Assembly (NCBI RefSeq): GCF_016859285.1
Contig: NC_053422.1
Span: 20,592,001 to 20,656,000 of the forward strand
Direction of reading: 5' to 3'
DNA from: Xiphias gladius
Taxonomy: Eukaryota; Chordata; Actinopteri; Istiophoriformes; Xiphiidae
DNA length: 64,000 nt
The notes beneath the pieces are model-generated. The model saw nothing but the letters and a program-made list of their open reading frames with translations, did not search any database and had not been told where the DNA came from. The position numbers and the translations under genes are program-made. Positions 569-49,186 of the stretch are shown here, in pieces. Position 1 is the stretch's first letter; each line of letters begins with the position of its first letter.

Positions 569-1026
569 CGAGTGACTAAGGTAAGCATCATCCTTTTGAA
601 AACGGCACGTAAGCAAAAAATTCATTTTACATTAACTCTAGACTTTATTGATATTCAATTTGAAACTAAAAAATACTGTCATTAGAGTAAATTATGTCTT
701 CCTAGGAATTAAATGATTTAGTCTTCAACTAAGTTATGAAATATTCAAGTTGTGCTAAGGTTTGTTAAAAATGCCAGATGAAGTTTTATGCTGTTTAATA
801 CAAGATTTAATTTAAATGTACGACAAAATTATGACAAAATATCATTTTTCTTCATTAGGTGATGTGATGCTATAACATATACTCTAAACTTATATGATCA
901 AAGAGAGACATTGTGTGAATCAGCACAGAGTAAGGGCCACGATGTAAAGTGGAACTTATTCCTCGGTGCCAAAATCATATTACATAAAATTACAGGATAT
1001 TAAAAAAAACAAGAGACTGTACTAAC

Positions 1027-1417
1027 CGATGCAGGTTCTAGCTGGCACAGAGGACTGGCTGATCCAGAAAGAGACCCAGGAGAGAACCACTAGCAGAATG
1101 GAGGGAACATAGGTCTCCAGGATAAAGAACAACACATTTCTACGCAGTGCAAAATGCAGCACCAGCTTGGGGTATTGTCCTGTGAAGAGAAAATGGATTA
1201 CATTTGTACTCTTCAAAAAGTTTCCTTTATTTAACTCCACATGTGAGGGGAATTCGGAGAGTTGAAGTGTTGTACCCGTTTCGTACACGGCCTCTGACAC
1301 TGATGTATAGTAGCTCTCTATGCTGTACTGAGCCAGCCGCAGTGTGTCAAGACCCCTCACTGAATCATTCCCTCTGGTCCAGTAGAACACCACATCCTGC
1401 AGGTTGTAGCCCCCTGA

Positions 1418-1469
<52 letters not shown>

Positions 1470-3322
1470 GGAGAGAGAGTTATCCTCACACGGGTACACT
1501 AATTAAGTTTTAATAAATCTGACCTGCTAAGCATCGCATTGTCTCTTCAGTTTGATACTCACTGCACTGATGATGATGATGAAAATGGTGATGGTTATGG
1601 TGAGATGAGGATGATTTATGTCCATCTACACTCTTGATGGAGGGTGTCAGGTATTACTCACAGCTCTCCAGCTGCAGAGTGCACACCTGTCTGTCCATGG
1701 GGTACTTGGTCAGGTCCATGTTGCAGGCGATCGTAGCCGTGATGCTGTTGTGTATTCATAGCAAGAGCATTAGAAAACTTCAAAAACTCCCCCAAAAAAG
1801 ACTTTTGCTATTTTGATGAGAGACAGGGCAATGTAATAATAGTAACAATTAGTGAGCACAAAGAACTCTCTACCCCTGAGCAACAATCTAGAGGACAAAG
1901 TCTAATATCTGAAGTGTCAATGTTAGATATTTCTGTATATGATGCATTCATTATGTAATAGTGGCTGAGTCTCCAAGCATTTGAATTGAAATTCTTCTGT
2001 TGATGTATTATTTCTAAAAATGCTAGAAATGTTGCAAAGGGCAACATAGTGTCCTAATGAATTGTTATTGCAAAAAAACGGTAATTTCACGAGGAATGGG
2101 GCAGACTCCACCATCACCACCATAAAATCAGACACCGTTAAGTCAGGAAACAAAACTGTGTTCCTGCACTTCGGACTAATGATGAATGACCCAAGTACAC
2201 TGCAAAAAACTGCCCTTTCTGTCCTCAATAAAGCTGTCAAGGCATAATAAAGTTCTCTATCAGTGAGACATGACAGATACGATGTAAGGACACATTTTGA
2301 CTGTGGCCAAAGGGGACTCTGCAAATATTCCCTAACACAATCTGAACTGTTTGAAGGGAACAAAAAAATACAGGAATTCAGTGGCATTCCCTTAAGTAAT
2401 ATGACTGAAAGATGATACATAAGTGCTTCTTTTTTGTTGTTGTTGCTTTTTTCAGTAAAACCCAAGGCCAATTCAAGGTTGATTACAACCATGAAAACAA
2501 CATGAGACTGAAAAATTTGGAAAAATGTCCTCCTCCTTTTAGCACCCCTTCATTTTCTATTCTTCCAGGTCATTTTCCTCCTACAAGCTCAGAAGAATCT
2601 GAAAAGCTTATTCGGTGGCACTTACAGGAGAATCAAATGCCAGTAAATGTCAAATCAATACACCTAAACCTTTAGAGAAAAAGAAAGTACCGGAGGGCAT
2701 AGAGAACAGTTCCGTTGCTGAAGATGCGTATGAGGCGGTTTTCCACCGTGACATCGTGCAGGAAGGAGCGCTTGGAGTCGGGGATGAAGGTGTCGGGGAT
2801 CCAGAGCAGTGACACCAGGCGTCCGTCCAGACTGACGCTCTCGTTTCCCGGGAACAGCAGCCTGGAATCCCGCCAGCGCTGACGGAGGAAGATAGTGGCA
2901 GTGTAGTCCTGAAAAGATGATGTGAACCTTCATTCATTTATCCAGTCATTCATGTTTTTCAGTCGCACACTTAGTCACGTGCTCCCACATTCACCCACTG
3001 GCACAAAAATAGTAGGAAGAGCTCTATACCATATTGATTTCAGAGATGGCATCAATACTGGCGATATCGAGGCTCATTCCAATTTCCACAGGACCCTCTA
3101 TCAAAGACAAAGGGACTGGTGTTAAGTCCAGTTTTTTGCTTTAACTGACACTCAAGTTCCGCTCAAAACTGTTTTAAATGAAACAATCACTTTTCAAGCT
3201 CCTTCCTACCATTGAAATTAGGTCTGAGGTAGCGGTTGTATCCTTTCATCAGCTTCTGAATTGTTGGCTGAAGCTGAGAGTCGTTCCATTCACCCCAGTG
3301 ATGGTTAGGGAACATACAGGCA
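1027..3322 (-). CDS. gabrp: GABA-A receptor pi subunit, partial (six exons; 3' end beyond left edge)
   Basis: Encodes part of a Cys-loop ligand-gated chloride channel subunit of the plasma membrane. Exons in transcript order are 3322-3210, 3097-3030, 2908-2691, 1744-1662, 1413-1276 and 1179-1027. All have GT..AG borders and join in phase. The lengths 68, 83, 138 and 153 nt are the classic GABA-A receptor exon sizes. Visible motifs are [34 protein letters not shown], a Cys-loop pair ([11 protein letters not shown] to C), RGNDSVRGL and the start of the first membrane segment ([22 protein letters not shown]). Agreement with pi is closest by memory ([24 protein letters not shown]). Transmembrane segments 2-4 and the intracellular loop are not in the window. 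The signal-peptide exon upstream of 3322 was not identified; an in-frame Met at 3378 exists, but a pyrimidine-rich acceptor at 3323-3324 argues that the exon starts at 3322. Confidence 0.9.
1419..1466. repeat. (CA)24 microsatellite next to a gabrp splice acceptor
   Basis: An uninterrupted CA run, read as (TG)24 on the coding minus strand. It ends about 5 nt before the acceptor of the 138-nt gabrp exon, where a pyrimidine tract would normally be. Confidence 0.95.
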
Positions 3323-23535: not shown

Positions 23536-24923
23536 TTAAACCTCTGTGCCCTCGCGATGATAGATGATCCCTGTCGAGCCCAGTGCAGGGTAGAAATGCC
23601 CACTGGACCCACTGTACTGGCTGAGGATAGGGCTAGTGTACCCTAAGGAAGAGCTGGTGGGTGAAGAGGAGAGCACAGGGGGAGCTGGCACTTGTGGTAC
23701 CCACTCTGGGCCAGCTGAGTTGGGGGAGTAGCTACTAAAGCTTCCAGGCTGTGTGGGTCTATGTGGCCCATCTAAAGGAAGGTTAATCTGCAGTGGCCGG
23801 CTTAACCCATCGCCTCCCACCTCATTAGCTGCTCCAGAGGTCACTCCAGACATCTCAGACAAGAAGCTGCTCAGACACGGTGCGGGGCCCGATGATGAAG
23901 GGGAGGGGATCCTGTCTGGTGTGGGGGAGATGTTAAGGGCAGGGTTTCCAGAGTGTTTGGGGCTTCCCCTCTCGCTGTCACCTGACTCTGGAGCCCCTGA
24001 GCCGCCGTCACCACCAGAGAGGGAATCCGACTTCCTCTTTCTTTTGCGGCGGAAGTTTCCGTTGTCAAACATCTTTTCACAGTTTGGGTCAAGTGTCCAG
24101 TAGTTGCCCTTTCCTGTGTTATCACAGAGTACAGTTGGTCAGACTCAATTTTAGACTTTAAAAAGGAGTAAACAGATTAACAATATGCAGCACACCTAGG
24201 AAACCACGGCACATTCAATAGGCAATATAATCAATCAGTAAATGGAAATAAAGTGAATTAAACGTATAAGTCTTTCTGTTAGTAGGAACAAAAATTTGGA
24301 TATTTTGATTTTAAAATTGTACCTGGATCGTCCTCATCTCTGGGGACTTTTTTGAAGCAATCGTTGAGCGACAGGTTGTGTCTGATGGAATTCTGCCAGC
24401 CCGCTTTACTCTTGTTGTAGAAAGGGAAGTTGTCGGCGACGTACTGGTAAATCTGACTCAGTGTCAGTCTCCTGTCTGGCGCCCCGTGGATAGCCATGGC
24501 AATGAGAGCGGAGTAGGAGTAAGGGGGCCTGACCAGTTTCATCAGGTCTTCTTGTGAGGGCAGAGAGAACCAGCTCAGCTCCCCTCCTGGGCCCCCAGCT
24601 CCAGCTGGACCCAGGTAAGACCTCTGCATGCCGTAGTGCTGAGGGACAAAGGGAGGGCCGGGGTTTCCAGATGGACCGGTGGTAGCCAGGTACGGCGGTG
24701 TGTTGATTCCGGAGCCGTTGAACCAGAGGTAAGGGTTTGGGGAGGAGGTGGTGTAGTCGCTCAGGTCGTAGGAGGTCGGAGTGGTGCGCTGAGGGCTTGG
24801 CAGTGAGGGAGGAGGGTAGTAACAATCACTGTACATGCTGAGCTCAGGGGGCTCCTGGCCGAGGCTGGGGAACTGCGGGCCACATCGAGGAGGAGACTGG
24901 CCCTGGGCCTCAAATGAAGACAT
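23536..24923 (-). CDS. foxi1: Forkhead transcription factor FoxI1
   Basis: Complete two-exon gene. Exon 1 is 24923-24323 and exon 2 is 24113-23536; the intron has CCAG|GTAC and ACACAG|GAA borders. The product is 392 residues, close to other FoxI1 proteins. The N-terminus ([20 protein letters not shown]) and NPYLWFNG are FoxI hallmarks. The forkhead domain spans about residues 131-225: [15 protein letters not shown], the recognition helix around [15 protein letters not shown] (176-190), and wing motifs [14 protein letters not shown] basic nuclear signal RRKRKRK is at 222-228, followed by a Ser/Pro-rich activation region. The intron interrupts the forkhead domain at Gly201. FoxI1 is a nuclear pioneer-type regulator of otic placode, pharyngeal and ionocyte genes (family knowledge). 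Gene borders: 5' leader begins above 24924; 3' UTR runs to about 22842. Confidence 0.95.
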
Positions 24924-25559
24924 TTTCTTCTCACCTCTCAGTGTCTCTTCTGAAACCCTTGGCTTTGGTTGTCCTTCCTTTTGATACCAAACCCTTTTTG
25001 TGAAGATTTTTTCAGCCCCTGAAAGAGCTTTTCTTGTTCAGTCCTTTGCAGGTATTTGAATGTGAGACGATCCAAACGATGGTCTCTAAACTTCCAAGTT
25101 GTAGGCCCCTGTTCTCCACCCCTCTCTTGTCTGTTTGCCCTTGGTTTATGTCAAGATGTCACCTGTAATACCGGCTTTATCTGTTTCCCTTGAAACGCCC
25201 CCTGTCTCTTTTGATTGGTTGTTTTCCCAGGTGAGCAGCCTGATCCTGTTTTCGCTCTCATTTTTTTTCCTGCTGTCAGCTAGTTCAGTTCCTTCACGGA
25301 TTTTGTTCACCCTCAATCATATAATTTTCCACTCACGCTGTTACTCCAACATTAGCTGAGTTCAGTCACAATGTTTTTGATGATTATGAATCCAATTTAA
25401 AGAGACTTAAATGAAGTATATATTTGTGGGGTCTATTCAGATTAGAAATTTGAGTTATTTTTCCCTCCTGCATGTTAGCCCTGCAGTAATTGACAGCTTA
25501 GTCACTATGAAGATGAACAACCTCTCCTACAGTAATTATTTATTTATTTTGGATATATA

Positions 25560-26139: not shown

Positions 26140-26975
<836 letters not shown>

Positions 26976-32344: not shown

Positions 32345-34660
32345 AACTTGTACGTTCTCTCACAAATATCAAATCCACCAAAAAATGAAGGGTGTACTTG
32401 ACAGCAGGACCTTTTTGCTTTGCAGTGTGATCACAAAACAAAGTTAAGAATGACTTCTGTGCTCTTCAAAAAAGCACACTCGTGGCGTGTCATCGTCTTA
32501 TGCACATATTGGGTTAAAGACTAAAGTAGAAAGTTTCAGTGCTCAAAAAGGTAACGCCTGCCGATTTCCTTTCGCACACATACGGATGCAACCACTGGCA
32601 TGAAGCTATGGTGGTTCTGTTGAATCTGTTCTAACTTACGTGTCCTATTTCTGATTCTCATAGGTGCTTTTTATACTAACTCATAGCATGGTGATGTTGA
32701 AGGCCGGGTCAGATCTTGTATCCGAGTCGCAGCCTGTCCCGTGTCAGGCCTCTTGGCATCTCACACCCAGGTGAGAGAGGAGGGGAGAGGGGAATCAGGG
32801 GTGATCAATCACGCTCAGATCCCCCTAGACCCCCAGGCATGTCTGGGTGAATACATGAGTCCTCCTGGGGGGTCCTTGTGGAAGATCACCCCCCTCCCCC
32901 GTTTTCCTCCTCTGTCGTGACTGAGGAAACATAACCCCCCCCCATGGAAGACATAATTCTGCCACAGCAGAGGAGCCATGGAATACAGTATAATTATAAA
33001 GCAATTAATGGATCAGTTTTAGCCAGGCATTATATCAGTGTAAGATAAAGTTCCAAAAATTTGGTCCAAAGTCTTTGAAAAATGCTTATTTCCCAAAACT
33101 GTAGAAGAACATACACCTGAAAAAAGGACACAAAGGGTTGCATTTCCCTAAAAAAACAAACCAGAATGCACTTTTTAGGGAGAAGAGTTTTTTCTGCAGA
33201 CATGAATGGAAGAACAGCTGTGGTCATCTCACTTGTGGAGCACAACCAACCAGTAGCATCATACGGGGCCAAGATGGAACCAATAATGTACCCAGTGGAG
33301 AGCAGAGATAAGGGGGCGGAGCGGTGAGGACCTCCATTGGGGTGAAACCTTCATTAACACACAGCAGGACAGCATGGGAAATACAGGAGATCCCCAGAAG
33401 CAAACAGACAAATGGGGAAGGATGGTAGGAAGTGTTACGGTCTGTGAGAGCGTTACTTGTTCCTACTACAGTCAGGATTGATTTTTTTTTTTTTTAACTT
33501 GGTGTCTAGAGGTGCTCTCTCAGCTTCTCTGTCCTTTTTAGTGAGACATTTCCAGCAAAAAAAAAACACACCACCCACCCATACGTGTATTTATGTGTGG
33601 GGGAGTGTTACTGGAGTAGTTCTGGTGTTTTCTTTAACCAGCGCTCATGGGCTGATGTCAGATTTTAAACAGTAAGCAGTGTTCACCCCTATGGGACTTC
33701 ATCGACTATAATGTTGCTTCGGTTCGTAGGGGCATGGAGACCCCAGTTGATGTATAATGTCATGATAATTCCTGCTGTAATTTCTCGCTCAGCTGGTTAT
33801 TGACTGCCTCTACAGCTAACTGCTCTGTAAAAGATGGTGAAACGGCCTTGTGTCCAGCCCCCTTTCTGTCAGACCCCCTCTCCCCCCGAGGCATGGACCC
33901 CCTGATGGAGGTAATATCCATGCGATCGCTCATTTAGCTGAGACGGTGACAGATTTATGACACGTCCAGCTGAGAGGAAGATTTTTGGAGATACGGGGGG
34001 TACGGGGAAGAAGGAGGCAAATGAATGGCTCCTTCAGACACAGATAGGCCATGGGCGGGGATAAGGCTCCTCTTAGACCTAATTAGTTGCAAGTTATAAG
34101 ATTAGAAATTAACCTGCAGTCAAGGGGGAATGTGAGTCGGGCTTATTTATAACTGTCTCCTCTCTGGATTCAGGGTGGAATAACTGGACCCCAGTTTGAC
34201 CCATTTTGCGGAGAAACAGCAACTCGGAAGTGCGGTGGAAAATGTGTGTCACAGTTTGCCAGCGTGTTTCCCCCTGGCGCTTTGATGTATTGTGATACAT
34301 ATGCGTTGCCAGTGGGATGTGACAAAGGGTAGGATAGACAGCGGTGTCTCCGGATGATCAAGCCAAAATGACCTTAAAACTTCCCGAGGTGGAGGCTCTT
34401 CTCCAATTTGTCTTTCAAAGCCTCGCTGCTCTTTGAATGAAATCAATACACGTTGACATCAAAGCGATAGTGGATCAGCGCTGGATCAACACCTCGGTTA
34501 GGTGTGAAATGCACCATGTTATCCATGTAATCCTCTGCTACGTGTATTCAGTCCATTCTTATTCTAAGAGGCAGAAGTTGTGTCCAACTGGGATTTATTA
34601 AGTAAAATATGTTTCTGCAGCTTTTGATTGAAACAAGACGTGGCATTAAGGAGTCTCGTA
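32345..34660. other. Non-coding stretch downstream of wnt8a
   Basis: No exon recognised. Contains C-rich tracts (32820-32945, 33860-33890) and short T- and A-runs (33481-33496, 33557-33568). The sequence from 33700 to 34450 is complex and could include regulatory elements, but nothing specific can be named. Confidence 0.5.
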
Positions 34661-34687
34661 TTTTTGAACTTTTTATTTTTTTATTTT

Positions 34688-34693
34688 TTTATT
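34688..34693 (-). terminator. Polyadenylation signal of the distal wnt8a gene
   Basis: AATAAA on the minus strand, about 140 nt after the stop codon, inside a T-rich stretch at 34661-34692. Confidence 0.6.
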
Positions 34694-34831
34694 AAACAAG
34701 CACAGTATTCATAAATAGACACTCGAGTATTTATACAAGCAGAAAAAAAGGAGTGAAAAGTGCAAACAGACATTTAACAAGCCCTTATGTGGGATGTAGA
34801 CGGAAAACGGATCCACGTAAAAATCTTTTTT

Positions 34832-36830
34832 TTATTTGGGTCCACGGTATCTCCGTCGAAAGCCGTGTCCATCCTCCATCCCTTCCCTCCTGGCGCACAC
34901 ATGTTTGACTATGACCTGGGAGCAGTCGTCGCAGTTCACCTTGCAGCACCAGTGGAACTTGCAGTTGCAGCTGCTCACCACCTCCGTGCGCCTCTCCTCC
35001 ACCCTTAGGCCGCATTCGTGGCACAGCCTGCGGCAGCTCCTCCTCTCCCACTGGGTTAGACCCTCTCCGTGCTGCACACACTCCCGGCCCTCGGTGCCGT
35101 ACAGCCCCAGGCTGGTGTTCTTCCTGCAGTAGTCCGGAGAGTCCTCCAGGTAGATGAGCTCTGTCTGGGCGATGCCACCGAACGCGTCCACGATGGCACC
35201 TCGGCTGTCCGCGCTGTTGCCAGCCCTCATGCGCTTTTTGTCGATGTCCAGTTTATGGGCTTGACTGTGCTTGATCTTCAGGTAGTTGCCAATTTCTCTG
35301 AAATCTGACAGCTGTGTCCAGCAGGTTTGGACACTGCAGCTCTCAGACATGCCGTGGCATCTGCAGATGCGCTTCATTGTTGCCTTCACAGCCTGTTGGA
35401 AACCGGGGAAAGTGAATTACTACCAACGAATTAAAACTCTGTCATTTCAGATAAGTGATTGCGGCGTGAACATAACTTACCAGCCGCCCGGCCTCATTGT
35501 TGTGCAGGTTGACAGCAGCCCTGGAGTCCTGACCTGTCTCCTGTGCATCCACGTACTGTTTGGAAATCCTCTCCCCGAAATCCACGTTATCACTGCAGCC
35601 ACCCCACAACCAGCCACGACCACCTGCACACAAAGTTTAACTGGAAATCAGACCACAGACTTTAAACTTATAAAAATTCCATAACTTTAAATGCATATAG
35701 ATCAAAGGCAAGTTTTATGTCTTTAACGGGCCACAGTATCTTGTAAGATATAAAGTAATATTCGGAGTAATATGGGATTTTCGCTGTAATCCTCACCAAA
35801 TTTCCCATTCTTTGAGACATCACAGCCACAGTTGTCGAGGTCCCCCAGACTACAGTTCCTGGTGAGAGTGTACATGACCCCTGCTGCACTGATGGCGTGG
35901 ACGAAAGAAGTCTCTCTAGTGGCTGTAAATGAGCAGAGCAGAAATGAGTAATCGCTTTTTTGTTTATTTTGCCATGTAGGACAAAGACATTTCAAACATT
36001 AATTGAGGAGATCGCCTTCAAAAATGAAAGTGAATAAATGTATAGGAATTACGCGTATTAATGATTCAAACATATTCTGGCCACTACTGAGACAAAATTT
36101 TGATGCAACTGTGCCGTATAATTACACAAAACTCAAATGGGCTTCTGTATAGGCATGACAAGGAAACTTGAAAATGAATGTAACACAGATCTATATATAT
36201 ATATATAATCTGATCCCTATGCCCCTGCCAATTTTTAGTGTTTCCATATGGGTGCATGTGTGCTGTTTTACAGAATGGAAACAATATTCCATTCTTCACA
36301 CAACTAAGACACATTTTACGCGTAAATGTCATTTTTCCTTGAACATTTACGGGCCTGCGTACATAACGCAATAAAGGAATTGTATTTACTTTCTCAACCT
36401 ACCGTGTCTTAGTCCTCTGAGCTGGGTTGCGCTGTCGGGACAGTTCCATCTATCCCACGCAAACTGTTGTTTGCACTCCTCAATCCCACTCTGTGCGCCC
36501 ACCTGCACGCTTCTTGCATAGGTGAGATAGGCCTAGAGGGGAGGCAGTGAGCGTCATTTTCTTTTGGGGCTTGAATCACATGTTGAAATTTTATCCTCAA
36601 CTTTTGAGAATAATCAAAGTAACCGATTTTTCTATTTACCTTAGGTCCCGTCATAAGAAAGTTACTCGCCACCCTGAGAAGAAGATAGCGGATGAGGAAT
36701 TAGATCAATCCATCCTAATTTTACACAGGTATACAAGATACAGGCAAACAGTGCAGACAGTGTCTTACCAGGCATGTCCCGGACACATTTTGTAAAAAAG
36801 AGGCAGGAGCCAAAACAACGAATGCACCAT
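34832..36830 (-). CDS. wnt8a: Wnt8a ligand, second (3') tandem copy
   Basis: Complete gene with six exons: 36830-36769, 36673-36640, 36532-36403, 35922-35797, 35623-35481 and 35392-34832, all GT..AG and in phase; 351 residues. A short hydrophobic signal ([12 protein letters not shown]) leads into SNFLMTGPK, the Wnt8 N-terminal hallmark. Family motifs include [74 protein letters not shown] and the Cys-rich end [11 protein letters not shown]. It keeps the serine that Porcupine acylates, but the following Gly is Glu here (MSES, against VSGS in the upstream copy). Asn-linked glycosylation sites: NCS and NTS. Compared with the upstream copy, exon 3 is nine nt shorter. It is a secreted canonical Wnt of early ventrolateral mesoderm and neural patterning. 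Corresponds by position to zebrafish wnt8a ORF2. Confidence 0.95.
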
Positions 36831-36901
36831 TTCCATCTACACCGTTAGCCCTCAATCTAGAGAGATGTAGTTATTTTTGACCCTGTGTGCTGCAACTTTC
36901 T

Positions 36902-36909
36902 CTTTTATA
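36902..36909 (-). promoter_or_regulatory. TATA box of the 3' wnt8a gene
   Basis: TATAAAAG on the minus strand, about 72 nt above the ATG at 36830. An inverted-CCAAT sequence (GATTGG on the plus strand at 36967-36972) lies about 60 nt further upstream. This suggests that the second gene has its own promoter. Confidence 0.7.
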
Positions 36910-36998
36910 TGAATGGAGAACAAATGGAACTCTTCTTTTTCTTTGTCCCTCCGGTCCGAGGAAGCTGATTGGGTGACGGTTTCAGGAAACGCCTCTAT

Positions 36999-37011
36999 GC
37001 GCACTTCAAAG
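36999..37011. promoter_or_regulatory. Promoter element shared by both wnt8a copies (distal gene)
   Basis: GCGCACTTCAAAG occurs here and again at 39817-39829, each time upstream of a wnt8a TATA box. It contains TTCAAAG, a fit to the TCF/LEF consensus (WWCAAAG). Confidence 0.6.
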
Positions 37012-37138
37012 GGTGGCTTCGGGCGAGGGTTTATTATCTACCCCTAGGCTCTGCGACAGCAGGGCACTAATATACAAATAACCGAATCAGGATTTTGCCA
37101 CTGACAAACCAGACGGAGTCATACGTCTTATAAAAATA

Positions 37139-37144
37139 TTTATT
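37139..37144 (-). terminator. Polyadenylation signal of the proximal wnt8a gene
   Basis: AATAAA on the minus strand, about 335 nt after the stop of the upstream wnt8a copy and before the promoter of the downstream copy. Its use would give a monocistronic message. Confidence 0.6.
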
Positions 37145-37475
37145 AGGTAACATTTTCAATTAGAAATACATTTAAAATATTAGACATTTTTTTTAGAGAT
37201 CACCGAAGACAAACGCAACAAACCCAACCAATTATCCCCTAAACACCAACATAAACTAGTGAGCGTGAGAGTTTGGTCCTCAAAAGACATACCGTATTTG
37301 GATTTATATACAAAATCTAATCAATAAGATAAAGTGCATTAAAAGGCTTCAAGTGATGTGATGGTTGAGAATTACATTCTTATAATACTGTACGATGCTT
37401 ACTGGTGTCCGTAATGCTGAAATAAATGAAGAGTGATGATGATACTGACTCAATGGTCTCTGCAACAAACGGCAT

Positions 37476-39586
37476 TCAGTGCCGGCGCGCATGGTGCCTG
37501 CGCTTCGTCTTGTTATGGGGTTTCCTCCCACTTTCTTTACGCGCACAGTAATATTTGGTAACAACTTGCGTGCATTTGTCACACTTCACCGTGCAGCACC
37601 AGTGAAATTTGCAGTTGCAGCTGCTGACAACCTCAACGCGCTTCTCTACCACTCTGAGGCCGCATTCATAGCACAGCCGGCGGCAGCTCTTTCGCTCCCC
37701 CTGGGACATGTTCTTGTCACCCTTCAGACACTCCCGCCCCTCGGTGCCCTGAAATCCCATACTCTGGTTCTTGACGCAGTAATCCGGAGAATCCTCCAGG
37801 TAAATGAGCTCCGTCCGAGCGATGCTGCGGAAAGCGTGCGCGATGGCTCCCCTGTTGTCCGCGCTGTTCCCAGCCCTGGCGGGCTTCTTGTCCATCTCCA
37901 GTTTCTTTGCCTGCTCGTGCTTCATCTTCAGGTAGTTACCCACCTCTCTGAAGTCGGCCAGCTGCATCCAGCAGGTTTGGATGCTGCAGCTCCCAGACAC
38001 TCCGTGACACTTACAGGCTCTCCTCATGGTAGCTTTGATTGCCTGCCGAGATAGTGAGAGTGTTAGTTGGAAATGTAGGTACTTAACCCACGCAACTTTC
38101 TCTTTCTCCGTGGGTTTAAGCGCATGCGTAAGTTCTGTTGACATGAGACGCGGAGTTGTTTTTGACTCCAAAACATCACTTTTCCTTCTTCGCATTGGGT
38201 TACTAATAAATGTCTGAATTTGAGAACACAGCCCAGAAAAAAATTCCACCGAACTTGAGTGACTCCAATAATAGTGGAATGACATCTTATATCTTACCAG
38301 TCTGCCTGCCTCGTTGTTATGCAGGTTGACTGCTGCGCGCGAATCATGCCCATCTTCCAGCGCGTCCACAAACTGTTTGGAGATCTTCTCTCCAAACGCC
38401 ACATTATCACTGCAACCTCCCCAAATCCATCCTCTGCCACCTGGGGATTGAGAATGCACTGTTATGCAGGCCCAGCTCACGTAAATCAGTCTAACAGTAA
38501 GTAGACCGGGCATGGAATAAAAATGTACCTGTCTGTCCAATTCTGGAGTCATCGCAGCCGCAGTTGTCAAAGTCACCCATACTGCAGTTCTTGGTGAGCG
38601 TGTACATCACTCCGGCCGCGCTGATGGCATGGACAAAAGACGTCTCCCTCGTAGCTGCAATAAATGAAAAAAAAAGCAAACCGCGATGTTACACTTTGCT
38701 GTCAAATTTGGCACCATAAATGCGCAATGCGCCGCTCAAAATACTGTAATGCTGTAAATGGCGCTTAAACCGTGCGTAAAGGCTTTATTGGAGATAGGGT
38801 AACCATTTTGACCATCTTGGCTGTTTTGTCAATGTGGTTCCAGCAAGGAATCTAAAGAAAAAAAAAAGGAATCAAGGAATCTTGGGTTCCTTCTCCATGG
38901 AGGTCAGAGCGCACCAACAGCTACAGTGCCGTCTCCGCACTGAGGGATAAACTACGCAAGAGCGCGACAGCAAAGTTGACAGTTGCCGGAACTGAACTCA
39001 TCACCACATCACTCTGCCGCAGGATGTCACGCATATGATACAAATATGTGGGTACAACTGTCTTACCACTTCGAAGGCCGTTGTGTGTGGATAATTGGAG
39101 CGTGCTCTCTGGGCAGTTCCACCTCTCCCACGCAAACTGGTGTTTACACTCTTGTATTCCACTTTGGGCGCCCACTTGCACACTGCTGGCGTAGGTCAGA
39201 AAAGCCTTGGGAGAGAAAGCAAAGGACGTTGTTATTTGTTAATGCATTTAACTAATAACAAGAGGCATCTATGTTACAAAATCATATTGTATGTTTGTTA
39301 TGTATGTCCCTGACGAGGTTTTACGCACAAAACGTACCCAAACACATATAGACAAAAATGTATTTACCTTAGGTCCAGTCATGAGGAAATTATTCACGGT
39401 CCTATAAAAAGAAAACATGACAGCAACGGTTAATCCCAGGTCACTATGTCACCGACAAACACATATTAAACTGTACTATTTTTCAAATGAATTCATCCAA
39501 AGGTAAGCGACATACCAAGCTAACGCAAACTGAAAGTCACAGCACATGGACAAAACCATGGCTGCAAGGAGATTTAATTGTCCCAT
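37476..39586 (-). CDS. wnt8a: Wnt8a ligand, first (5') tandem copy
   Basis: Complete gene with six exons: 39586-39516, 39401-39368, 39205-39067, 38654-38529, 38440-38298 and 38042-37476, all with consensus borders and matching phases; 359 residues, the usual Wnt8a length. The signal peptide is [85 protein letters not shown] (the Ser in GVS is the Porcupine acylation site) and [11 protein letters not shown] identify Wnt8. The tail KTKRRHHARRH is basic. Sites NCS and NQS can be glycosylated. The protein is exported and signals through Frizzled/LRP6 to beta-catenin. The stop is 645 nt before the ATG of the second copy on the same strand, so a read-through bicistronic transcript, as described for zebrafish, is possible. 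Corresponds by position to zebrafish ORF1. Confidence 0.96.
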
Positions 39587-39688: not shown

Positions 39689-39696
39689 TATTTATA
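39689..39696 (-). promoter_or_regulatory. TATA box of the 5' wnt8a gene
   Basis: TATAAATA on the minus strand, about 103 nt above the ATG at 39586. A TCF/LEF-like CCTTTGATT (plus strand, 39708-39716) lies right next to it, as would suit autoregulation by Wnt signalling. Confidence 0.65.
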
Positions 39697-39849: not shown

Positions 39850-42800
39850 CAGCCCCTCATTCATTCACCTGTCGTTCCCAGGCTTTAATCCCTATACGCT
39901 TTTCCCACGAATTGAATCAGATCCAGTGAATTAAATCAGTATATATCTCAAGTAGGACGAATAAAACCATATGATACTGCAATCCTACAACCGTTTCATT
40001 GCAGCTTTATTAAGATACACGTTTATTGATACAAGGAGACAAGTGTGCGAACATCACTGTGTGACTGTAACGCAGGAAAGAGGATTTGAAGAGGGGTTGG
40101 CTGCTGCACAGAGGCCAAAAGATAACATCGCCGACACTGCACAAGGCGGTTTCCCCAAAATAGTAGGGTTCCATACCCTACGGAAATACAGCACTGAATG
40201 CAGTCGGGAGGCCTCATGTGTAGCTGGAAACGTTTGGGAAATGGCACCAGTGTCCCAGGGGGAAAGACGGTGACTACAAAGCCATAAAGTCTTTCAGGGG
40301 CTGACGGTATATAGTCATGTAAATATTGCCTCACACATCGGCGACATTGGCGTGGTCGTGATAATAGGATAATAGATGTTTCCCTGGGAAGCAACTTGGT
40401 GTGAAAACAGTCTGGAATTTACAAGAGTATAAACACATAAGAGCTTTAATGTTTCGGCCATTAAATTGTAAGTTAGTTTATTGGAGTACAGTATAATTTT
40501 GTTATATGATGCTTTTGATTTGTAGACCTCTGACCAAATCTAGAAAAATAGATTAGGTTCATAATGATTACATGCGGTAGAAATCCGGGATTATCCAGAG
40601 TTTAGTTCAATCACATTTCACCCTGCTGATCATCTCCCCTTGATTTAGATCACATCATCAACGGTCATCATGCCAGTTTCTGTCATTTCATACTCATACT
40701 GTGATTCGGCGTGTGAGAAGTTAGTGATTAAGATTACAGTTTTTAAATATAATGCCATGACACTTGTCAAATCCCCTTTAAACCACTCAAAGTCCCCTAA
40801 AACAACAATTCACTCAGCGCGGCGGACAATAGACGGGCGGCAGGGCGAGGTGTAGGTGAGGATAATCCCCACTAATTAGATATCACCCACATTCACTCTG
40901 CGATATGACTGAAACCTCGAGCCCCTCAACACCTGGCTGGGAAATAATACGGAGCGATTAAAAAAAATCACTCCGCGAGGCCTCATAATTTGTTCTGGAG
41001 TTAACGATTTTAATGGGTTAATAACCTGCAAACAACAGCAGTCGATCCGGCTGGGCGTGTTTCTACATGGGTGCTAGAGGTCTGCTAAACATCGAAACTC
41101 TCAAGGACAAATCACGCGGGCTGTTATGTGGCATTTAAAGCAACATATTAATTTTTCAAATTATTATTATTATTATTATGTATTTCAAGAGGCCGAATTA
41201 GAACTTTTGTCCAAGCTATAATTAGATAAACATTTATGTTGTGATCATCATTAATATACTTAACGAAAAAGTTACTAATAGTTATTTTAAAACCCCTTAC
41301 TTCATTATGGATTCGGTTTATATACCACTTGGGGATAATGTGTATTCCAGCTCAGCCTTAACAATGACAAGAGAACATGTCAGGGTCCGGACCTTGGAAT
41401 TACACTGCGCTTAAAATAACGCGAGGCAGAAACGCACCCGTATCAGACATGTCAGACACATTAGGGCCGTCCAGGGCGCGTTGATGCCCTGATTTATGCC
41501 GGTGCCAAGGTGAGAGGAGTGGAGCAATAAAGGCTCAGGAGGTGGCGGGTTTGACAGACAGAGGGAGGGTGGCGGGACTGGTGACGCCAGCCGCGGACAC
41601 CAGTGACCAGTAAGGCGGGGATTTAGGGCGATAGATGAACACTTTACTAGTATGTGGTCGTGGAATTCAGTAATAACCTCTAATAAATAAATAAACAACA
41701 GGATACATAAAGAAGTTATCCTACCATTAATGCCGAAAAACACGATAAATAGCATTGTTATAAAATGTTATCTCGGCATTATGAACAGTTTTATTTAGCC
41801 TAAAGATGCAGTTTTTATTAAAAATATCTCTTTTCAAAAGTCTATCGTTATTTCATAATGGTAGCTATTTTGACAGTGGTACTTTCCTCTAATATTCTTC
41901 TTTTCAGTGACAGTATTGTGGCCACGAAGCCCCGCCCCCTCGCCCTTCAGCCAATCGCTCTCCTCTCAGCAGAGTCCGCGACTGCTAGTTGGCAAGCTAG
42001 CTCCCGTTAGCCGCAGCAAGAGAGGAGAAACCCACAGCACTGTCCGTGTGTCCCACTTCATGCGACGGTGTGTTTTGCACCCGGGCAGCCTTGAAGTCAG
42101 ATGCTGCTTTTGCTGTTAATATTCACTTACTGCAGACCAGGCTACAATAACGACTATTTTCATCATCAGTAAATCTGCATTACTCCGTTAATAGGTAGTT
42201 GATTTATAGGTCTATTCAGTGTCAGAAAATAGGGAAAAATCCACATTGCAGCTTCCCGGAGCCCAAGGTGACATCTCCAAAAAGCGCGATGTGTCCATCT
42301 CAAAACCTAAAGCGATTCTACTTACTCTCTTGTAAGACTAAGAAAAACAGCAAATAATGAATGCTAATCATTTTTGTATCCATGGATCAACCAACCCCCC
42401 GGCTCTAATGGCTACTAAAAAGCCACCAGCGAAGCTAGCTTGAAGCGTTAGCTGGCTAGCTGCCTTGTTGAGCCAGTCAAAAAGAGAAGATGAAACAGCT
42501 TCTCATTTGTTCAGGAGCTGTCTCCACAGTAATACTGTAGAACATTCATTCTACAGTTACGTAGTGAATTTATTAATGTGTTGGTTCATTTCCTGTATAT
42601 ATGCATATGATTATTTGTATATTAGACACTTTGAGTACATTGTTATTATTATTATTAAGGTATAAAAATGTGTGTTGCCAACCCTTATTCTGAAATCATC
42701 CTTTCGGGAAAGTATACTTAAATACGGTCCTTGTTTGTGCTTTAAACTTAGACTGAATCTTCTTAAAAATCTGGTGGAAACTTAAAGTGATGAAGACTCT

Positions 42801-48240: not shown

Positions 48241-49186
48241 TAGACAGGTGACAAATTAACCCAAAACCTGAATAAATGAGTGGAGAAACATAATGAATGT
48301 AGATGCTTCCACACCGGTGCACTGCATGGTACAATTACGCAGTTAACATCCAATCATGCTCTGTGGCATGAATAAAAATGCTGAGCAGTTGATTCTGATT
48401 TCTTATGAAGATGGCAAAAGCAAAAGATCTAAGTGACTTTGTAAGAGGGTTCGTTGTTTGGCCCCGGTTGAATTACAAAGATGAATGCACATTTGAGGGT
48501 TCAGTGGTTCAAAAACCGTAGGCACCGGTCTACAGAGGTTTGGAAAAAAGGTATCTGGTCAGATGAGTCATCCTTCACCATATTCTTGACAAGTGGGCGA
48601 GTGCATGAGTGGCGGACACCAAGAGAAGGGTACAGGCCTGAATGCTTGACCCCTACAGTGAGGGGCTCCCGTTGCTCTGTTATGCTGTAGGGGGCCTTTG
48701 CTGGCATGGTTTGGGTCAACTTATTCCCATAGAGGAAAGGGTCACTGCAAATCAATACAAAGTTGTTCTGAGTGATCACCTTTATCCTGTAATGAAACAT
48801 TTCTATCCTGATGGGAGTGGTCTCTTCCAGGATGACAATGACCCCATCCATAGGGCACGAGGGGTCACTGAATGGTTTGATGAGTATGAAAATGATGTGA
48901 ATCATATGCTGTGGCCTTTGCAGTCACCAGATCCCAACCCAGTTGAACGCCCCTGGGAGATTTTCCGACTGATGTGTTAGACAGCGCTCTCCAGCACCAT
49001 CATCAAAACACCAAATGAGGGAATATCTTTTGGAAGAACGGTGCTCATTCCTCCAGTAGAGTTCAGAAGCTTGTAGAATCAATGCCAAGGAGCATTGAAG
49101 CTTTTTTGTTGGCTCATGGTGGCCCAACACCTTACTGAGACATTTTATGTTGGTTTTTCCTATAAGTTTTTCACCCGTCTGTATGT
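48241..49186 (+). mobile_element. Tc1-like transposon with broken transposase
   Basis: Ends TAGACAGGTGACAAATTA and (inverted) CAGACGGGTGAAAAACTTA are imperfect terminal repeats. The interior encodes the C-terminal half of a DDE transposase in two frames: 48481-48690 (WSDESSF, carrying the first catalytic Asp; ends in a stop), then from about 48642 to 48980 (DGSGLFQDDNDPIH with the second Asp; WPLQSPDPNPVERPWE with the final Glu). The N-terminal DNA-binding part is missing or unrecognisable and the frame is shifted, so the element cannot move by itself. Confidence 0.85.

Follow-up and report, generated by a model that had tools for sequence, protein, structure and literature searches.

A tandem pair of wnt8a genes in the swordfish genome, the second with an altered hairpin beside its predicted acylation site

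Two wnt8a genes lying close together on one strand raise two questions, namely whether each is transcribed from a promoter of its own or both are read out as one joint RNA, and whether the two encode equivalent ligands. These questions are posed by a locus of the swordfish Xiphias gladius contained in a window of 64,000 nucleotides (nt) of NC_053422.1 (positions 20,592,001 to 20,656,000, which is C23:20592001-20656000 in the genome searched here, of 690.8 megabases and 1298 contigs). The minus strand of the window between positions 34832 and 39586 holds two complete Wnt8 genes of six coding exons each, gene A and then gene B, arranged head to tail. We hold with considerable confidence that this is the conserved wnt8a tandem locus of teleosts, in which A is wnt8a1 and B is wnt8a2, both coding for secreted Wnt8 ligands and both transcribed mainly from their own promoters with some read-through.

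Gene A (37476..39586, minus strand) has exons at 39586-39516, 39401-39368, 39205-39067, 38654-38529, 38440-38298 and 38042-37476, and its coding length is 1080 nt including the stop (359 codons), without an internal stop. Gene B (34832..36836, minus strand) has exons at 36836-36769, 36673-36640, 36532-36403, 35922-35797, 35623-35481 and 35392-34832, with a coding length of 1062 nt including the stop, again without an internal stop. Two in-frame ATGs are candidate starts of B, one at 36836 and one two codons later at 36830, giving 353 and 351 amino acids, respectively, and the context by the Kozak rule is better at 36830 (GAAATGG) than at 36836 (TAGATGG). All ten introns have GT-AG borders, and in both genes the five introns, in order, have phases 2, 0, 1, 1 and 0. 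Exons 2, 4 and 5 are equal in length in A and B (34, 126 and 143 nt), while exons 1, 3 and 6 differ (71/68, 139/130 and 567/561 nt for A/B). The spacer from the stop of A to the first ATG of B (36837..37475, minus strand) is 639 nt long, or 645 nt if the start is 36830. A preliminary description of this DNA had claimed two complete wnt8a genes in tandem, with six exons per copy, the three shared exon lengths and a distance of 645 nt; our exon-by-exon rebuild, with its intact frames and GT-AG introns, reproduced all of this, the distance being exact when counted to ATG 36830. Absent from that description were a second AATAAA in the spacer, the earlier in-frame ATG of B and a glycine-to-glutamate change in B beside the serine predicted to be acylated.

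Judged by their predicted proteins, both genes are members of the Wnt family and of its Wnt8 subfamily. The Pfam wnt domain (PF00110; curated cut-off 20.3) is matched with 315.7 bits by A (expectation value, E, 5e-94) and with 301.3 bits by B (E 1.2e-89). In a search of solved structures, Xenopus Wnt8 (4f0a) was matched with E 1e-179 by A and 2.7e-169 by B; the best three chains were Wnt-8 or Wnt-8a for each protein (E 1e-179 to 1.3e-152), and the next chain was Wnt-5a for A (1.7e-70) and Wnt-3 for B (8.7e-69). Protein identity is 68.6% between A and B, 77.2% between A and Xenopus Wnt8, and 74.4% between B and Xenopus Wnt8. Protein A gave 63 matches in the genome, mainly exons of other Wnt genes, and among the best-scoring candidates last-exon identity to A exceeded 50% only at A, B and a gene on contig C11 (99, 67 and 62%; the next 46%). 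The third Wnt8 gene of the genome is the one on C11, presumably wnt8b given its divergence from A and B. Despite similar exon borders, matches on C21 and C22 were rejected as further Wnt8 genes, since they encode proteins distant from A and B that contain the Wnt4-like sequence GFQWSGCSDN. In a tree of five proteins only, whose other members were Xenopus Wnt8, human WNT8A and the C11 Wnt8, A and B were grouped together with moderate support (86/86); the branch lengths were 0.39 for B and 0.20 for A.

Two complete, close-set wnt8a genes arranged head to tail on one strand are the teleost wnt8a tandem pair. The arrangement is already known from zebrafish, medaka and pufferfish, two tandem Wnt8a paralogues being given for every teleost analysed in PMC3896364, and the window adds one more fish. 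For telling the paralogues apart, ten published primers were compared with A and B, and two of them distinguish the genes. These are the two internal primers of medaka Wnt8a1 (PMC3896364), which fit A at 17 of 20 positions each and B at 12 and 13 of 20, and their sites in A span 530 nt (38019 to 37490), equal to the published product size. By this comparison, gene A is assigned with fair confidence to Wnt8a1 (ORF1/Wnt8.1, ORF standing for open reading frame). Gene B would then be Wnt8a2 (ORF2/Wnt8.2) by its position, on which the assignment rests because neither the Wnt8a2 nor the zebrafish primers separate the two genes.

The zebrafish wnt8a locus (ORF1/ORF2, or Wnt8.1/Wnt8.2; PMC3896364, citing Lekven et al. 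2001) shares the two tandem Wnt8 ORFs. Its reported transcripts include a bicistronic RNA and one of the second gene, and the tree published in PMC3896364 places the zebrafish pair together on the Wnt8a1 branch. Medaka likewise has a tandem pair, Wnt8a1 and Wnt8a2, of which the first is tied to A by both internal primer sites at the 530-nt spacing; in PMC3896364 the authors raise, as speculation, the absence of a bicistronic RNA in medaka. In Fugu (AY628150, coordinates as printed in PMC3896364), ORF1 is followed by ORF2 (1-1092 and 1552-2604) after a gap that, as here, amounts to some hundreds of nt (459 nt against 639-645 nt), and the ORF lengths by these coordinates are 363 and 350 amino acids against 359 and 353 in swordfish. 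Maternal expression of both zebrafish genes is described from in situ hybridisation in PMC7402524, and according to PMC3896364 maternal Wnt8a2 was not found in medaka.

Promoter-like sequence stands before each gene. The predicted TATA boxes lie on the minus strand at 39689..39696 for A, 110 nt before its ATG, and at 36902..36909 for B, 73 nt before ATG 36836, both positions agreeing to the base with those first described. By chance a TATAWAWR match within 150 nt before the ATG is expected in 1.1% (A) and 1.4% (B) of dinucleotide shuffles (n=2000 for the 150 nt before each ATG), and a CCAAT is present at 36972-36968, 63 nt above the TATA box of B. A further TATAWAWR match in the spacer at 37310 is far from any start and is weak or neutral evidence for separate units. 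If transcription starts are assumed 30 nt below the TATA boxes, no ATG falls within the resulting leaders, of 80 nt for A and 44 nt for B, and the spacer contains nine. A candidate poly(A) signal after A, AATAAA at 37139..37144 (minus strand), is followed about 25 nt downstream by the GU-rich stretch GTCTGGTTTGTC; this signal was placed exactly in the preliminary description, which left unmentioned the second spacer AATAAA at 37030..37035 (minus strand). After B, three AATAAA (34693, 34685 and 34677) are found within 34672..34693 on the minus strand, and a fourth begins at 34599.

The arrangement that we favour is that each gene would be transcribed mainly from its own TATA promoter, that transcripts of A would end at one of the two AATAAA signals of the spacer, and that some would continue through B, giving a bicistronic RNA of the kind known from zebrafish and Fugu. 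Protein B would then be made from a transcript with a short, ATG-free leader and not from the bicistronic RNA, in which nine ATGs would precede its start. Separate promoters are plausible and favoured by the sequence, with which read-through is compatible too, and both kinds of transcript probably exist. Separate transcripts had been described at the outset as no less feasible than a bicistronic one; the promoter-like sequence before each gene upholds this, but the alternative is not a new one, since a separate second-gene transcript besides the bicistronic one is already given for zebrafish in PMC3896364.

We think it improbable that a single promoter upstream of A serves both genes through a bicistronic RNA, with B translated by reinitiation or internal entry and the TATA and AATAAA of the spacer idle. 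The bicistronic wnt8a mRNA reported in zebrafish and Fugu (PMC3896364) would fit such a scheme, as would the spacer of only 639-645 nt, which counts for read-through and is of the same order as the 459-nt gap of Fugu; however, the TATA box of B, at 73 nt from its ATG, has a chance frequency of 1.4% in shuffles, nine ATGs separate the stop of A from the start of B, and the zebrafish second gene also has its own transcript (PMC3896364).

Several points nevertheless count against a tandem wnt8a1-wnt8a2 locus with mainly separate promoters. The 5' and 3' ends of A and B are predictions from sequence, and joint RNAs are reported at the wnt8a locus of zebrafish and Fugu (PMC3896364). One or more AATAAA occur in the spacer in 40% of dinucleotide shuffles and two or more in 8%, and the poly(A) signals by themselves therefore carry little weight; the nine ATGs of the spacer are an ordinary count, as ten are found in an equal stretch upstream of A. 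Eight of the ten primers, as printed in PMC3896364, do not discriminate: the outer medaka Wnt8a1 pair fits A at 14 and 12 and B at 13 and 13 of 20 positions, the Wnt8a2 pair, of 26 and 24 positions, fits A at 15 and 15 and B at 15 and 14, and the four zebrafish primers, of 20 positions, fit A at 13 and 13 and B at 15 and 13 (ORF1) and A at 14 and 16 and B at 16 and 15 (ORF2), so that one ORF1 primer fits B slightly better (15 versus 13). The moderate support and five rows of the tree belong here too, as does a motif search in which no full T-box site was found in the 1 kilobase (kb) before A or in the spacer.

A shorter sequence, TCACACC, occurs once in the same regions, at 40404, against a shuffle mean of 0.12. 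Of TCF-type sites there are three in the 1 kb before A and one in the spacer (shuffle means 0.77 and 0.6, respectively), and there is no FoxH1-type site. Each predicted wnt8a 3' untranslated region carries one GCACTT on the minus strand, at 37337 for A (6% of shuffles) and at 34763 for B (2%), presumably a miR-430 seed match; GCATTT and AGCACTT are found in neither. No inference is drawn from the T-box, TCF, FoxH1 and GCACTT counts.

As to whether the two ligands are equivalent, A and B are old copies. Over 350 codons by the Nei-Gojobori method (NG86), nonsynonymous divergence (dN) is 0.23 and synonymous divergence (dS) 1.96, a ratio of about 0.12; the synonymous sites are saturated and amino-acid changes are few relative to silent ones. 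This ratio, together with the intact gene, speaks for a function of B. No support was seen for recent conversion between the two genes, with 41 of 94 comparable fourfold sites identical, dS about 2 and no exon outstanding (0/2, 2/4, 5/14, 7/17, 6/18 and 21/39 identical fourfold sites in exons 1-6).

Wnts carry a fatty acid on the serine of a hairpin, CKCHGxSGSC. This serine (CHGxSGSC) is present in both genes, where it is the predicted acylation site, and directly beside it gene B has GAG (Glu184; 35342..35344, minus strand) where A has GGG (Gly), so that B reads CHGMS-E-SC. Among 24 Wnt genes of the genome, being those with a family-scan match over the hairpin part of the profile and thus a lower bound, S-G-S-C is read in 23 and B is the sole exception; the glycine directly after the serine is kept in A and 22 further genes. 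A lysine-to-arginine change next to the hairpin serine of B (K178R) is common to one other Wnt gene, on contig C2. In the second finger, B has CCKVNC instead of CCTVKC, with a lysine seen in none of the 20 other genes that fit the pattern (3 of the 24 are off pattern). The second Wnt8a departs here from a stretch that is among the best conserved in the Wnt family, adjoining the lipid-bearing serine.

The exception is already in print, since PMC4068752 (2014) states glutamate at this place in medaka and zebrafish 'Wnt8-like', and an error of the present assembly is therefore unlikely. For 'Wnt8-like' that paper cites Yokoi 2003, and according to PMC3896364 the name is an old one of medaka Wnt8a1; the names clash here, as medaka Wnt8a1 is the orthologue of A, yet A has glycine. 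No functional follow-up of the remark was found among open-licence literature listings, and one may exist elsewhere. At the same place, the G210R change of Wnt3a is described in PMC4068752 as having lost more than 90% of secretion and its binding to Frizzled-8, with dramatically reduced reporter activity and a resemblance to poorly lipidated protein, and as still producing an effect in 24.8% of zebrafish embryos after injection. Wild-type behaviour is stated there for G210A (data not shown), and the substitutions reported in that paper are Arg and Ala, not Glu.

As a result of the glutamate beside the acylated serine, B could be weaker as a ligand than A, or be handled differently. In a tentative extension, to which we give a low probability, the locus would be a Wnt8 source of two strengths, A supplying a normal lipidated ligand and B, with its glutamate and CCKVNC, a poorly acylated or weakly Frizzled-bound one acting as an attenuated or modulating partner, and the embryo could set the ratio of the two by way of the separate promoter of B. 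The zebrafish genes are called semi-redundant in PMC3896364, which counts against B as a weak ligand. Less likely still is the side idea that A-to-I RNA editing of the GAG of B, to the GGG of A, could restore glycine; the RNA around this codon has no folding advantage over shuffled sequences (z 0.09, with 103 of 200 doing equally well).

Very unlikely is the explanation that B is degenerating and that its changed hairpin is a sign of lost function: it is favoured by the longer branch of B (0.39 versus 0.20), by 14 unique changes, compared with 8 in A, in alignment columns of five Wnt8 proteins that are otherwise fixed (bare counts, including G184E and K178R) and by a lost N-x-S/T glycosylation site at residues 278-280 in exon 6 (GLT against NMS/NLS in A and Xenopus Wnt8), but frame, splice sites and length are intact, the pair has a dN/dS of about 0.12, the relative-rate test is significant with one of three outgroups only (p 0.22, 0.013 and 0.41), and the glutamate is also reported in medaka and zebrafish Wnt8-like (PMC4068752), so that the change looks old rather than degenerate. 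The idea most worth testing is Wnt8a2 as a naturally altered, possibly weakly acylated Wnt beside a normal one, and such an altered, conserved hairpin would offer a direct test of the amount of acylation that a Wnt requires in the embryo.

Elsewhere in the window, Rfam and tRNA scans gave no match. At 1025-1498 (minus strand), the end of an open frame matches a neurotransmitter-gated ion channel (Pfam Neur_chan_memb, E 8e-8), and an open frame at 1926-2549 had no match in the solved-structure search. A forkhead gene, which we take to be of foxi type, is located at 23539-25037 (minus strand), with its Forkhead domain (E 1e-31) in 24282-25037, and a second, partial and scrambled forkhead copy of six blocks (86-93% identical) is found 1.9-3 kb away at 26259-26905. 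A transposase fragment, apparently of Tc1 type, is present at 48642-48977 (plus strand), its DDE_3 score of 28.5 bits being just under the Pfam cut-off of 28.6.

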